From Microbacterium yannicii (GTDB lineage: Bacteria > Actinomycetota > Actinomycetes > Actinomycetales > Microbacteriaceae): DNA of 64,000 nucleotides. The first letter of the stretch is position 1, and each line of letters opens with the position of its first letter. The stretch covers positions 1 to 64,000 of the forward strand of contig NZ_JAMXMB010000014.1 in assembly GCF_024055635.1 (NCBI RefSeq), written 5' to 3'. The position numbers and the translations under genes are program-made. The notes beneath the pieces were generated by a model. The model was not told where the DNA came from. It worked only from the letters and a program-made list of their open reading frames with translations, and made no database searches. Positions 56,362 through 61,007 of this stretch are shown here, piece by piece.

Positions 56362-58500
56362 CTACCCCTCCAGCACCGCGAGCTGCTGCGTGGCCCGGGT
56401 CATCGCGACGTAGCGGTCGACCGCGCCCTCGATGCCCTCGCCGAAATCCGACGGCTCGACGAGCAGCACGAGGTCGAACTCCAGCCCCTTGGCGAGCTCG
56501 GGGGTGAGCGACCGCACCCGTTCCTGTGGTGCGAACGACCCGTCGCCGATGACGACCGCGGTGCCCTCGGGATGCCGCGTGAGCCAGTCGTCGAGGATCG
56601 TGTCGCGCTCCGACACCGCGCGGTGAAGCACGGGGATCCCGCTCGAGCGGATCGACGTCGGCACGTTGGCATCGCGGATCGCCGCCCGGATGACGGGCTC
56701 GGCCTCGGCCATCACTTCGCTGGGCGTGCGGTAGTTGATGGTGAGCGAGGCGATCTCGACCTCCGTGAGACCGACGCGCTCGAGCCGCTCCTGCCACGAC
56801 TCCCGGAAGCCGTGCCGCGCCTGAGCCCGGTCGCCGACGACCGTGAAGCTGCGCGACGGGCAGCGGGCCAGCAGCATCCGCCATTCCGCATCGGTGAGCT
56901 CCTGTGCCTCGTCGATCACGATGTGCGCGAACGGCCCCGCGAGCAGGTCGGGGTCGGCCGACTCGAGCACTGATTCGTCGACCAGGCTGTTGCGGAGGTC
57001 CTCGCCGTCCAGCCACTGCATCATCTCGTCGCCGGCCTCCTTCAGCCGCTCGACGACCTGCGACATGTACTCCCGCTCGCGGGCGAGCCGGGCATCGCGC
57101 TGCCGCTGACGCAGGGAGGCCGCGGGATCGCCGAGCCGGCGCCGGGCGGCGTCGAGCAGCGGAAGGTCCGACGTGGTCCAGGCGGCGGGAGCGCTCCGCT
57201 GCAGCGCATCGACCTCGTCGGGCGAGAGCCAGGGCGCGCACCGGCGCAGGTAGGCGGGGACGCTCCACAGATCGGAGACGACGACGGATGCCTCGACCAG
57301 CGGCCACGCCCGGGCGAAGGTCCGCGTGAGCTCCTCGTTCCGCGCGAGCGCCCGGCGCAGCTGGTGCAGCGGCACCTCTTCGCCGTCCGCCTGGTCGATG
57401 AGGATGTCGAGCACCGTATCCCATACCTGGTCGCGCGCCTCGTTGTGGGGTATGCCGGGTTCGGCCGAGGCGAAGGCCTCGGCCCAGTCCTGCGGGCTGA
57501 GCCGCAGTTCGCCCCACGGGGTCTCGACGAGGAGAGGCTTCATCGGGGGCTCCTCGTACAGCCGGACGGCAGGCTCGATCGCGTCGATCATGCGGCCGTC
57601 GGCCTTCAGCCGTGCGACGGCCGGATCAGGCTCGGCCGCGGCGACCGCACCCTCGGTGACCATGTCCCGCAGCGTGCAGGTCTGCACGCTCTCTTCGCCG
57701 AGGCTCGGAAGCACGTCCTCGACGTAGGAGAGATAGGCGGGACTCGGACCGACGAACAGCACGCCGCCGCGCCCTTCGCCGAGGTGCGGATCGGAGTACA
57801 CGAGATACGCCGCGCGGTGCAGCGCGACCACGGTCTTGCCGGTGCCGGGGCCGCCATCGACCACGAGTGCGCCCCGCGACCCGGCCCGGATGATCGCGTC
57901 CTGGTCCGCCTGGATGGTGCCGAGCACGTCGCGCATGCGCGGTGAGCGGCTCGCGCCGAGGCTCGCGATGAACGCTGACTGGTCGTCGAGGGCCGCATTG
58001 CTCCGCAGCCCCTCGGGGGTGAACACCTCATCCCAGTAGTCCGTCACGCGGCGTCCGGTCCACCGGTAGCGGCGTCGACTCGCGAGTCCCATCGGCTGCG
58101 CATGGGTCGCGGCGAAGAACGGCTCGGCCGCCGGGGTGCGCCAGTCGACCAGCAGGCGCCGGCCCGCAGCATCCCTCAGTCCGAAGCGGCCGATATAGGT
58201 CGGCTGCGAGCCGTCCGCGGGGACCATCCGGCCGAGGCACGCATCGACGCTGAAGCGGCGGAGGACGCGCAGGCGGGCGGAGAGCCGGTGGATCTCAAGG
58301 TCTCGCTCGAGCCCGGCCTGGCCATGGCCGCCAGGCTGACGGCGCAGCACCTCGAGGCGATCCTCGATGCCGGCGATCGACTGGTCGAGGCTCTCGGCGA
58401 TCGCGGCGAAGTGGCGTTCGTCGTCGCCGACGAGTGCAGGGTCCGACTTGGCGGTGAGACGGTCGGGCAGCTGAAAGGGGCTGGTCTGAATCGGATTCAC
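56362..58500 (-). CDS. helR: HelR/HelD-type RNA polymerase recycling ATPase (UvrD-like superfamily 1)
   Basis: A 712-residue superfamily-1 ATPase. The Walker A motif is GGPGTGKT (216-223); helicase motifs II (VIDEAQELTDAEW), III (TVVGDRAQA) and VI (YVAMTRATQQLAVL) are present. The N-terminal ~140 residues are a charged coiled coil, as in HelD and HelR, which enter the RNA polymerase channels and release stalled or drug-bound enzyme. HelR confers rifamycin tolerance in Streptomyces and mycobacteria, and here a rifamycin-associated-element-like palindrome lies in the promoter, which strongly favours HelR. GTG 58500 has AGGAG eight bases upstream and is preferred over the open frame reaching 58743. 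Confidence 0.9.
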   Translation of the reverse strand: MNPIQTSPFQLPDRLTAKSDPALVGDDERHFAAIAESLDQSIAGIEDRLEVLRRQPGGHGQAGLERDLEIHRLSARLRVLRRFSVDACLGRMVPADGSQPTYIGRFGLRDAAGRRLLVDWRTPAAEPFFAATHAQPMGLASRRRYRWTGRRVTDYWDEVFTPEGLRSNAALDDQSAFIASLGASRSPRMRDVLGTIQADQDAIIRAGSRGALVVDGGPGTGKTVVALHRAAYLVYSDPHLGEGRGGVLFVGPSPAYLSYVEDVLPSLGEESVQTCTLRDMVTEGAVAAAEPDPAVARLKADGRMIDAIEPAVRLYEEPPMKPLLVETPWGELRLSPQDWAEAFASAEPGIPHNEARDQVWDTVLDILIDQADGEEVPLHQLRRALARNEELTRTFARAWPLVEASVVVSDLWSVPAYLRRCAPWLSPDEVDALQRSAPAAWTTSDLPLLDAARRRLGDPAASLRQRQRDARLAREREYMSQVVERLKEAGDEMMQWLDGEDLRNSLVDESVLESADPDLLAGPFAHIVIDEAQELTDAEWRMLLARCPSRSFTVVGDRAQARHGFRESWQERLERVGLTEVEIASLTINYRTPSEVMAEAEPVIRAAIRDANVPTSIRSSGIPVLHRAVSERDTILDDWLTRHPEGTAVVIGDGSFAPQERVRSLTPELAKGLEFDLVLLVEPSDFGEGIEGAVDRYVAMTRATQQLAVLEG

Positions 58501-58571
58501 GGCATCTGCTCCTGGCGGATTCTGCGACGCGGGTGGGGAGGGAGAACGGGCGGGAGCGCGTCGCGACCGAC

Positions 58572-58610
58572 CAGTATGCGCCCTCAGGGGGCCCTTGCGG
58601 CAAGGCCCCC
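58572..58610 (-). promoter_or_regulatory. Promoter of helR with rifamycin-associated-element-like palindrome
   Basis: At 58587-58610 lies a G5-CC-CTTGC-G-GCAAG-G-C5 palindrome with one extra base in the left arm. It closely matches the rifamycin-associated element (RAE), CTTGC-G-GCAAG flanked by G and C runs, that controls rifamycin-resistance genes in actinobacteria. On the minus strand TTGCCG within the palindrome and CATACT (58572-58577), about 19 bases apart, form a -35/-10 pair, about 72 bases upstream of the helR start. Confidence 0.8.
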
Positions 58611-58754
58611 TGGCGCCGTTATCCTGGTAGTGGCAGGAAGTCGCTGCGGCCGGACGGGGAGGTCCGGATCGCGGCAGGAACCGCACGGGTCGCATTTCCG
58701 CCGGCGTCTGCGATGAGTCCGGCGTGTTGGTGGCCCGACCCACGCGCCCCTAGG

Positions 58755-61007
58755 ATGCGGAAAGTGACGGAGACTCTCCGTGAGCCGGCCCTGGGGGGAC
58801 CCGACTTGCAGGCGGTGCTGCTCAGCAGCAAGATCCAGACCCCTCCCGCTCGGCCCGGAGCCGTCAGCCGGCGCGCCCTCATCGACCGCGCACGCGACAG
58901 CGGCGCGCGCGTCGTCTCGGTCACGGCCCCGGCCGGATACGGCAAGTCCACCCTGCTGGCCGAGTGGGCAGCCAGCGATCCGCGAACCGTCGCGTGGGTC
59001 TCGCTCGACCGCACCGAGGTGGACCCCGCATCGCTGCTGTCGGTGATCGCCGCGGCATCCGTCTCGTTCTCGCCGGCAGCCGCGTCCGTCATCGCCGACA
59101 TGCGCGGTGTCGGGACGGCGGCGCTCGGCCGCTCGGCGCCGATGCTGGCCGGTGTCCTCGCCGCCGCACCGGAGAGCTTCGTGCTGTTCGTCGACGACCT
59201 CCACTGGGCGGACTCGCCCGATTGCCAGGACGCGATGGAGGTGCTCTTCGCGCACGTGCCCGAGGGATCCCAGATCGTCTTGGCGAGCCGCCGGGAGCCC
59301 TCGCTCATCGCGCGCCTGCGTGCAGCCGGAGACGCCTCGGAGATCACCGCCGCGGATCTGTCGCTCGATCATGCCGGCGCCCGCGCCATCTTCGAGCACG
59401 CCGGCGCCGAGGGCGTCGACGACGCGGACCTGCACTCCATCGTGGAGCGCTGCGAAGGCTGGCCGACAGGGCTGTTCCTGTGCGCGCTGGTCGCACGATC
59501 GGGTGGGGATGCGGCATCCGTCACCGGTGAGGACCGATTCGTCGCCGACTATCTGTATCGCGAATGCGTGGCCCGACTTCCGGAGGACACGCAGTCGTTC
59601 CTGCGCCGCACCTCCGTGCTGGACCAACTCTCCGCGGCGTCCTGCAATGCGGTGCTCGGCATCGAGGACTCCCGCGCTCGGCTGCGCGAGATCGAGACGG
59701 CCAATCTCTTCCTCATCGGGATGGACCACCATCGCGGGTGGTTCCGCTTCCACCCGCTGTTCCGCGAATTCCTGGCGACGGAGCTCGAGCGGGCCGAGGG
59801 TGCGGCCGCTGTCGCCGAGCTGCACCGCCGCGCCGCCTCGTGGCATGAGATCAACGGTGCGCCCGCGCAGGCCGTCGAGCACCTGCTGCAGGCGGGCGAG
59901 ATCGAGCGCGCCGCGGATCGCATCGCCGAGCTCGGCCTGCCGATGTACCAGCTCGGGCAGGTCTCCACGGTCAGACGGTGGCTCTCGCAGCTCGGCGACG
60001 ACCTCGTGCGCAGCTATCCGTCGCTCGTCGTGTCGATGACGTGGACGGCGATCCTCCTCGGCGACGTGCCGGCGGGGGAACGGTGGTCGCGCATCCTCGA
60101 GGGGTTCGATGTCACCGCCCTTCCCGAGCCGGATCGCGTGCCGTTCGAATCGGCTCGCGCCATGGTCCGTGCCGCGCTGTGCGAGCACGGGCCGGAGCGC
60201 GTCATGATCGACGCTGCCTACGGCATGGAGCACGAGCCGGCGACGAGCCCCTGGCGCGATCAGGCCCTGCACCTGTGGGGATCGGCGCACCTGCTGGTCG
60301 GCGACCTCCCGGCGGCGAAGAGCGCGTTCGAAGAGGCGATCGACGTGGCGACGGCCATGGGCAACCCTGACACCGTCATCCTGTGCCGGCCCGAGCTCGC
60401 CCTGCTCGAGGTCGATGCGGGCCGCTGGGGCAGCGCCCGGGAGCACGCGGAGCGCGGCATCGAGGCCATCGACGTGAGTCACATGGACGGCTACCCGACC
60501 ACCGCGCTGGCGCTGGCGGTGGCGGCGCGGGTGGCGCTGCACCACGGCGAGCGCGAACACGGCACGCGCCTTCTGGCGCGGGGGATGCGCGCGCGCATCG
60601 GCTGCACCCGCCTCCTCCCGTACGTCTCCATCCGCGCGAGGATCCAGCTCGCGAAGGCTCATGTCGCGCTGGGCGACCGTTCTGCGGCGTGGCACCTGGT
60701 CCGCGAGATCGACGACCTTCTACGCAAGCGCCCGGACGTCGGAGTCGTCGTGGGGCAGGTGGAGGAGCTGCGGGACGCCCTCGCCGCCGAGCCCGCCGCG
60801 GGCGGCTCGGTGCCGCTCACGCCGGCGGAGCTGCGCCTGCTGCCCTACCTGCAGACCCATCTGACCATCGCCGAGATCGGTCAGCGCCTGTTCATCTCAC
60901 GCAACACGGTGAGCTCGGAGGTCGGGTCGATCTACCGCAAGCTCGCCGTCACCACGCGCGGCGCGGCCGTCGAGCGCGCGAGCGCACTGGGGCTGCTGGG
61001 CGGCTGA
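58755..61007 (+). CDS. LuxR family regulator of the LAL/MalT type
   Basis: A 750-residue regulator. Walker A is APAGYGKST (58-66) and Walker B VLFVDDLHW (about 141-149); this is the STAND-type ATPase domain. A helical repeat (TPR-like) region fills about residues 370-680. The C-terminal LuxR helix-turn-helix is LTPAELRLLPYLQT then ISRNTVSSEVGSIYRKL. LAL proteins act as ATP- and ligand-dependent activators. The start may be ATG 58755 or GTG 58764, the latter with better spacing from AGGATGCGG. It is divergent from helR with 254 bases between; its targets are not evident. Confidence 0.9.
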   Translation: MRKVTETLREPALGGPDLQAVLLSSKIQTPPARPGAVSRRALIDRARDSGARVVSVTAPAGYGKSTLLAEWAASDPRTVAWVSLDRTEVDPASLLSVIAAASVSFSPAAASVIADMRGVGTAALGRSAPMLAGVLAAAPESFVLFVDDLHWADSPDCQDAMEVLFAHVPEGSQIVLASRREPSLIARLRAAGDASEITAADLSLDHAGARAIFEHAGAEGVDDADLHSIVERCEGWPTGLFLCALVARSGGDAASVTGEDRFVADYLYRECVARLPEDTQSFLRRTSVLDQLSAASCNAVLGIEDSRARLREIETANLFLIGMDHHRGWFRFHPLFREFLATELERAEGAAAVAELHRRAASWHEINGAPAQAVEHLLQAGEIERAADRIAELGLPMYQLGQVSTVRRWLSQLGDDLVRSYPSLVVSMTWTAILLGDVPAGERWSRILEGFDVTALPEPDRVPFESARAMVRAALCEHGPERVMIDAAYGMEHEPATSPWRDQALHLWGSAHLLVGDLPAAKSAFEEAIDVATAMGNPDTVILCRPELALLEVDAGRWGSAREHAERGIEAIDVSHMDGYPTTALALAVAARVALHHGEREHGTRLLARGMRARIGCTRLLPYVSIRARIQLAKAHVALGDRSAAWHLVREIDDLLRKRPDVGVVVGQVEELRDALAAEPAAGGSVPLTPAELRLLPYLQTHLTIAEIGQRLFISRNTVSSEVGSIYRKLAVTTRGAAVERASALGLLGG

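Follow-up and report, generated by a model that had tools for sequence, protein, structure and literature searches.

The rifamycin-associated element (RAE) appears to be the centre of a larger and apparently new mirror-image element that extends well beyond its 19 bp. The locus that led to this view lies in a stretch of 64,000 nucleotides from Microbacterium yannicii (hereafter the window), where a RAE precedes a gene predicted to encode HelR, a class II HelD protein. On balance we favour a reading in which the RAE palindrome serves as the shared −35 region of two back-to-back sigma-A promoters, P2 directed towards helR and PA directed away from it, whose balance would be disturbed by the drug. 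The parts of this proposal deserve different degrees of trust. That the antisense promoter PA is real is likely, and we hold this with considerable confidence; that RNA polymerase itself is the rifamycin sensor is possible, although we lean slightly towards doubting it; and a transcription factor acting through the RAE is a strong rival.

Why should the architecture of this element matter? Two papers, from 2022 (PMC10719064) and 2026 (PMC12802891), describe the sensing of rifamycins through the RAE in actinobacteria as an unsolved problem. Should the RAE prove to be the core of a bidirectional promoter, rifamycin sensing could be dissected by point mutations, and an 85-bp profile could take the place of a short palindrome in recognising RAE-driven resistance. 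No description of an antisense promoter at the RAE was found in the open-licence literature, a scope that does not establish its absence from print.

The helR gene and its product

The original prediction, that of a rifamycin-inducible HelR, was made for an interval (56362–58610) that comprises the helR gene (56362–58500) and its promoter up to 58610 (Table 1), and it is supported by the computational tests described here. The product scores 1217.5 bits against the NCBIfam HelR model NF041254, far over the cut-off of 750, whereas its scores against HelD_MYCSM (378.7 bits; cut-off 1051) and HelD_BACSU (93.8 bits; cut-off 419) are far under theirs, as would be expected of the HelR-type gene that had been proposed. 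Of the solved structures, 6yxu matches it best in sequence, through its HelD chain (E = 4.7e-100). As to the question raised earlier of whether the protein groups with HelR or with HelD, a FastTree tree of 135 proteins, the rooting outgroup of which is not monophyletic, places it inside a HelR clade of 105 members with a support of only 0.681. An upstream RAE core with at most one mismatch accompanies 87 of these 105 members; a separate HelD_MYCSM-type clade has 19 members, 11 of them with a true RAE (a chance intragenic match in L120 is not counted), and none was found upstream of the remaining 11 HelD proteins sampled in the tree.

Table 1. Features of the helR locus, in positions of the window
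Feature	Position	Strand	Details
helR coding sequence	56362..58500	-	GTG start at 58500; 712 aa; from translation and match to NF041254 (motor_HelR)
Shine-Dalgarno AGGAG	58509..58513	-	8 nt 5' of the helR GTG; from sequence
Sense −10 CATACT of P2	58573..58578	-	19-bp spacer; predicted RNA start about 58566–58567
RAE core CTTGC-N-GCAAG	58594..58604 (centre 58599)		perfect 5+1+5 palindrome; arms to 58588–58610; profile E 4.4e-14
−35-like TTGCGG of proposed PA	58595..58600	+	putative; mirrors the −35 of P2 within the palindrome
−35-like TTGCCG of P2	58598..58603	-	from sequence; position agrees with M. smegmatis P2 (PMC10719064)
Antisense −10 TATCCT of PA	58620..58625	+	19-bp spacer; conserved T-22, A-26, A-21 (helR strand)
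Predicted antisense +1 (G)	58632	+	7 nt past the PA −10; helR-strand C in 43/44
Divergent MalT/LuxR-type regulator gene	58755..61007	+	Pfam TPR_MalT, GerE; start codon uncertain

The PCh loop, the feature said to distinguish class II from class I HelD, is present in the window protein with its acidic residues kept (KEAGDEMMQW in the alignment); in the gapped alignment it lies opposite the M(D/A)DED of HelD_MYCSM-type proteins and is shortened. A DWR-x-P motif occurs as VDWRTP at residue 118, with T replacing A/S, a Walker A motif (GGPGTGKT) at residue 216, and the class III insertion is absent. Judged by its sequence, the window gene is thus a HelR (class II HelD) gene, ordinary in kind and a fresh member of a known family, and by homology its product would be expected to bind RNA polymerase and expel bound rifamycin. 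The HelR group of Larsen et al. (2021), described by its authors as the part of the tree in which RAE-preceded helD genes gather, includes two Microbacterium proteins (PMC8655204).

Could the gene instead be a housekeeping HelD that carries a relic RAE and no longer answers the drug? The same genome also has an Arr homologue, and HelR exceeds the cut-off in only 24 of 59 genomes of the genus, both of which would suit such a relic. Set against this, 31 of the 33 Microbacterium HelR loci in the tree, two of which appear twice, keep the RAE core, and we regard a relic as very unlikely.

The RAE in front of helR

The minus strand upstream of helR reads AGGGGGC-CTTGC-C-GCAAG-GGCCCCCT. The palindrome that had been noticed there fits the RAE indeed: its core is perfect, and a profile made from 57 diverse RAEs, that of the window included, matches it at E = 4.4e-14 in the genome, the next matches being an overlapping one on the opposite strand (E = 0.002) and then one at E = 0.098. 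The flanking runs of five G and five C are present as described; their exact register is not, for the two arms are one base out of step (left GGGGGC, right GGCCCCC). A genome-wide search for further copies, as had been suggested, found the core at one place only in 4.44 Mb, the reversed control pattern occurring 9 times per strand. With GG/CC arms and up to two mismatches, 12 sites per strand compare with 73 for the control; because the control outnumbers them, these looser RAE-like sites carry no signal, and one of the 12, elsewhere in the genome (C8:1798), has a single mismatch.

The placement of the palindrome over the −35 box is likewise borne out, with TTGCCG inside the palindrome and CATACT after 19 bp, and in M. 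smegmatis, too, the RAE overlaps the −35 of P2 (PMC10719064; Sudzinova et al. 2022). The antisense half of the element was absent from the original prediction. A standard sigma-70 scan of positions 58480–58800 with spacers of 16–18 bp returned no promoter on either strand; P2 and PA both have 19-bp spacers and poor −35s. No terminator-like site was found within the same interval.

A mirror-image element around the RAE

When helR upstream regions were aligned on the RAE core (44 non-redundant promoters out of 84 usable ones, 8 matchless loci being left out), near-invariant bases emerged on both sides of the palindrome. On the helR strand these are A+22 and T+26 on the right (44/44 each) and A-26 (43/44), T-22 (44/44), A-21 (39/44) and C-33 (43/44) on the left; the unfiltered set of 221 oriented loci has A+22 in all 221, T+26 in 219, T-22 in 218, A-26 in 220 and A-21 in 213. 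The right-hand pair is part of the sense −10 (CAGAAT, CACAAT; CATACT in the window), 19 bp from TTGCNG, and the left-hand bases supply, on the other strand, T1, A2 and T6 of a −10 hexamer whose distance from the palindrome is the exact mirror of the sense one. The near-invariant C-33 is then a G on the antisense strand at the +1 expected for PA.

A class-wide search of 296 genomes for GGNCTTGCGGCAAGNCC gave at least 150 matches in 126 genomes, and the reversed control pattern 19 matches in the same 296 genomes, so that some of the pattern sites are chance. The 150 matches listed furnished 130 for analysis, the 20 left out being 5 before helR genes already sampled and 15 chosen by no rule; after removal of one at a contig end (L152), 129 RAE sites remained. 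Both mirrored A/T pairs (+22/+26 and −22/−26) are present at 124 of these 129 sites among the matches listed, one pair at 2 and none at 3, and when both pairs are slid to other offsets between 8 and 39 no site has them, apart from 2 at offset 28. Two of the five misses (L233, L245) have no rifamycin gene visible by eye beside the site, in L195 the left block is shifted by one base, and in L194 T26 is changed. In the fifth, L186, the palindrome is intact, both −10s have lost bases and the frame that follows has similarity to no more than the end of HelR; this looks like a decaying helR locus.

For the analyses of wider sequence context, loci were first required to have the four mirrored bases, as 216 of 221 do, and were then thinned to less than 70% identity, which left 163 loci, in which counts at those four bases are circular. 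The antisense hexamer reads TANNNT in 158 of the 163, its first base being T in 158, and the sense hexamer (CANAAT) begins with C in 152. All 24 Microbacteriaceae loci found with a profile have the A/T bases at −26, −22, −21, +22 and +26, the profile having been trained on such elements, the best-fitting core having been picked per locus and one locus being also in the class-wide set. Left and right arms covary as complements at ±11, 12 and 13 (z = 4.1, 3.9 and 3.3 over the 163 loci, kinship not removed); RAE loci are related by descent, and redundancy was reduced only at the 70% level.

Four HelR loci without a RAE (L027, L051, L065, L067) have, by eye, a short TATAGCAGA-like or GCAGAG-like promoter sequence, as if the left and right blocks were joined and the palindrome between them were missing.

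The predicted antisense RNA

Past the predicted start of PA, the antisense sequence can in many loci form a hairpin from its very first base, followed by a U run. A stem of at least 7 bp with its 5' arm starting at +1 or +2 is found in 69 of the 163 loci; swapping the downstream halves among loci gives a mean of 41.6 and a maximum of 53 (200 trials), and because this control is itself high, shared sequence explains much, although not all, of the hairpin signal. Counted by the position of the 5' arm, hairpins are raised from about −27 to −38, with peaks at −33 (63) and −34 (67), compared with 3 to 16 at positions −42 to −119. A terminator-like form, with a stem of at least 6 bp and a U run, occurs in 43 of 163 loci, against 2–11 in ten shuffles and 0–5 at six control starts, and the first 40 nt of the predicted RNA fold at −14.6 kcal/mol, against −11.7 kcal/mol for shuffles.

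By gene, the 5' hairpin is found at helR in 41 of 111 loci, rox in 10 of 21, rph in 10 of 10, rgt in 5 of 10, ABC transporter genes in 2 of 3 and arr in 1 of 8. It is present in 66 of 140 loci outside Microbacterium and in 3 of 23 inside it, so the argument from hairpins does not hold within the window's own genus; the predicted antisense RNA of the window has no 5' hairpin, only an inner hairpin lacking a U run. Taken across the genera, the pattern argues for a real antisense transcript and for reading the left block as antisense, and the conserved antisense promoter would then often yield a hairpin RNA of roughly 25–30 nt.

Genes behind RAE sites

Clustering by blastp of the genes beside the 129 RAE sites among the matches listed gave helR (55), monooxygenase (29), phosphotransferase (16), glycosyltransferase (12), Arr (8) and ABC transporter (3) groups, with 6 genes in no cluster; none of the 123 assigned genes is a regulator. 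NCBIfam models support the monooxygenase cluster (rifampin monooxygenase over cut-off in 2 of 2 full-length representatives) and the Arr cluster (over cut-off in 3 of 3 representatives). The phosphotransferase cluster corresponds to Rph, the top family in all 4 of its 16 members scanned, with scores under the cut-off because the sequence stretch ends inside the gene. The single Rgt representative scored 624 bits over its whole length, below the cut-off of 800, and one RAE-bearing HelR was over its cut-off although cut short. Two of the six unclustered genes begin like monooxygenases, L168 by NCBIfam (masked in part) and L197 by eye. The orientation of the element is identical in every gene family, TANNNT facing away from the gene and CANAAT towards it.

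Three loci (L188, L190, L192) have the RAE and both −10s before an ABC transporter gene, for which a DrrA-type ATPase is the top family in all three and over cut-off in L188 and L190; these genes are candidates for a rifamycin efflux system under RAE control. A RAE-like site with both mirrored pairs also lies in L215 beside genes not known for rifamycin resistance, one of which resembles, by eye, a DUF2510-type membrane protein, and it may be either chance or a new RAE target. The Arr homologue of the window genome (L272, G000:C31:75023-75319; PF12120, 165 bits) has no RAE nearby, the best core match there being 8/10.

A proposed bidirectional promoter and its rivals

How might such an element work? 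In the reading favoured here, polymerase would choose between a weak P2 (CATACT) that leads to helR and PA (TATCCT) that leads away from it, the two −10s being mirror-placed. Because both share one palindrome, P2 and PA could not be occupied together, and polymerase would serve one at a time. Without drug it would be drawn to PA, which has the better −10 with the consensus first T, and in many other genera would make from it only a short hairpin RNA. A polymerase arrested by rifamycin, or a factor sitting on the palindrome, would then disturb the balance, P2 would fire and HelR would be made. PA would be kept at almost all RAEs sampled, with no gene consistently behind it in Microbacterium and often an immediate stop elsewhere, which suggests that it is the firing of PA that matters and not its product. 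A more ambitious version, in which the actinobacterial RAE is primarily a bidirectional promoter with polymerase as the sensor, akin to B. subtilis in another geometry, and in which a single device of this kind controls helR, rox, rph, rgt, arr and some ABC transporters, is tentative, and we would not yet expect it to hold.

The literature supposes something different of the RAE, namely that it is the operator of a rifamycin-responsive transcription factor; the outer A/T pairs would then be protein contacts, or the factor would control both promoters. Two −35s account for only part of the palindrome, which with its G/C runs exceeds what a −35 needs, and the covariation of the arms at ±11 to 13, which the promoters do not explain, favours a dyad-binding protein or a nucleic-acid hairpin. 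Deletion of half the RAE is reported to have abolished induction in M. abscessus (PMC10719064), the accessible text of PMC12802891 calls a factor possible, and neither P2 nor PA passes the standard promoter scan. What speaks against an operator is that the outer conserved bases coincide with T1, A2 and T6 of a −10 box and stand at the spacing of one, that hairpin arms start at or beside the predicted +1, and that a regulator is found at 0 of the 123 assigned RAE genes among the matches listed (the six unassigned ones having been viewed by eye). We consider the factor a serious contender, although we think it somewhat less likely than not.

The left block might, on the other hand, be the −10 of an upstream sense promoter P1, with no antisense promoter at all, as A-NNN-T is identical on both strands and M. 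smegmatis is reported to have a sense promoter P1 some 20 bp upstream of its RAE (PMC10719064); GATAAT on the antisense strand in 5 of 163 loci fits either reading. Read in the sense direction, TANNNT occurs in only 25 of 163 loci, compared with 158 of 163 in antisense, A-21 has no role, there is no strongly conserved −35 upstream, and both the mirrored spacing and the antisense hairpin would have to be coincidence. We hold this reading to be unlikely. Still less credible, and in our opinion very unlikely, is that the divergent promoter serves the neighbouring MalT/LuxR gene. That gene is indeed divergent, ends at 61007 and has no terminator-like site between it and the element; against this, 124 of the 129 sites among the matches listed, before several gene families, retain the mirror −10, and among relatives only L004 has this neighbour.

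The MalT/LuxR gene was also considered as a dedicated regulator of the RAE and rejected, since outside the window genome it was seen only in L004 (among L001–L141, with flanks of about 1.3–2.5 kb); it is probably not part of the RAE system.

Comparison with known systems

Among known HelR or class II HelD genes with a RAE, S. venezuelae SVEN_6029, M. abscessus MAB_3189c and M. smegmatis MSMEG_2174 share with the window the protein family, the acidic PCh loop and a RAE over the sense −35. In the window, as in L002, the PCh loop is 3 residues shorter than those of the nine further HelR loci compared. An antisense −10 and a hairpin are not described in the searchable papers.

A precedent for the proposed arrangement is the dual-promoter alarm of B. 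subtilis helD, a rifampicin-induced gene with an antisense promoter that has a 19-bp spacer and gives a terminated RNA of about 90 nt; this promoter silences helD until rifampicin arrests polymerase on it (PMC12802891). Common to both systems would be an antisense promoter with a 19-bp spacer upstream of a helD-family gene, for which the window has conserved hexamers at that spacing that the standard scan does not pick up; a short terminated antisense RNA is predicted in other genera, although not in the window. However, the B. subtilis protein is class I and that of the window class II, and the B. subtilis promoters are convergent, with start sites 39 bp apart and induction abolished when the gap is shortened by 17 bp (PMC12802891), whereas P2 and PA of the window would stand back-to-back and overlap over a shared palindrome. 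The B. subtilis model cannot be transferred as it stands because it depends on convergent promoters set some distance apart. Either the coupling at the RAE differs from that in B. subtilis, or a second sense promoter would have to lie further upstream; a search with strict hexamers for one like the M. smegmatis P1 found it in 6 of 163 loci, at no common position. PMC12802891, in its accessible text, sets actinobacteria apart from this scheme.

At the RAEs of actinobacterial rox, rph, rgt and arr, the element, its orientation and the −10s are the same as in the window, while the enzymes differ from HelR and the arr of the window genome lies apart from any RAE. The notion of one element driving several genes agrees with what is reported for M. 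smegmatis, where rox, arr and helD belong to the genes most strongly induced by rifampicin, with comparable induction when sigB is absent (PMC6529629).
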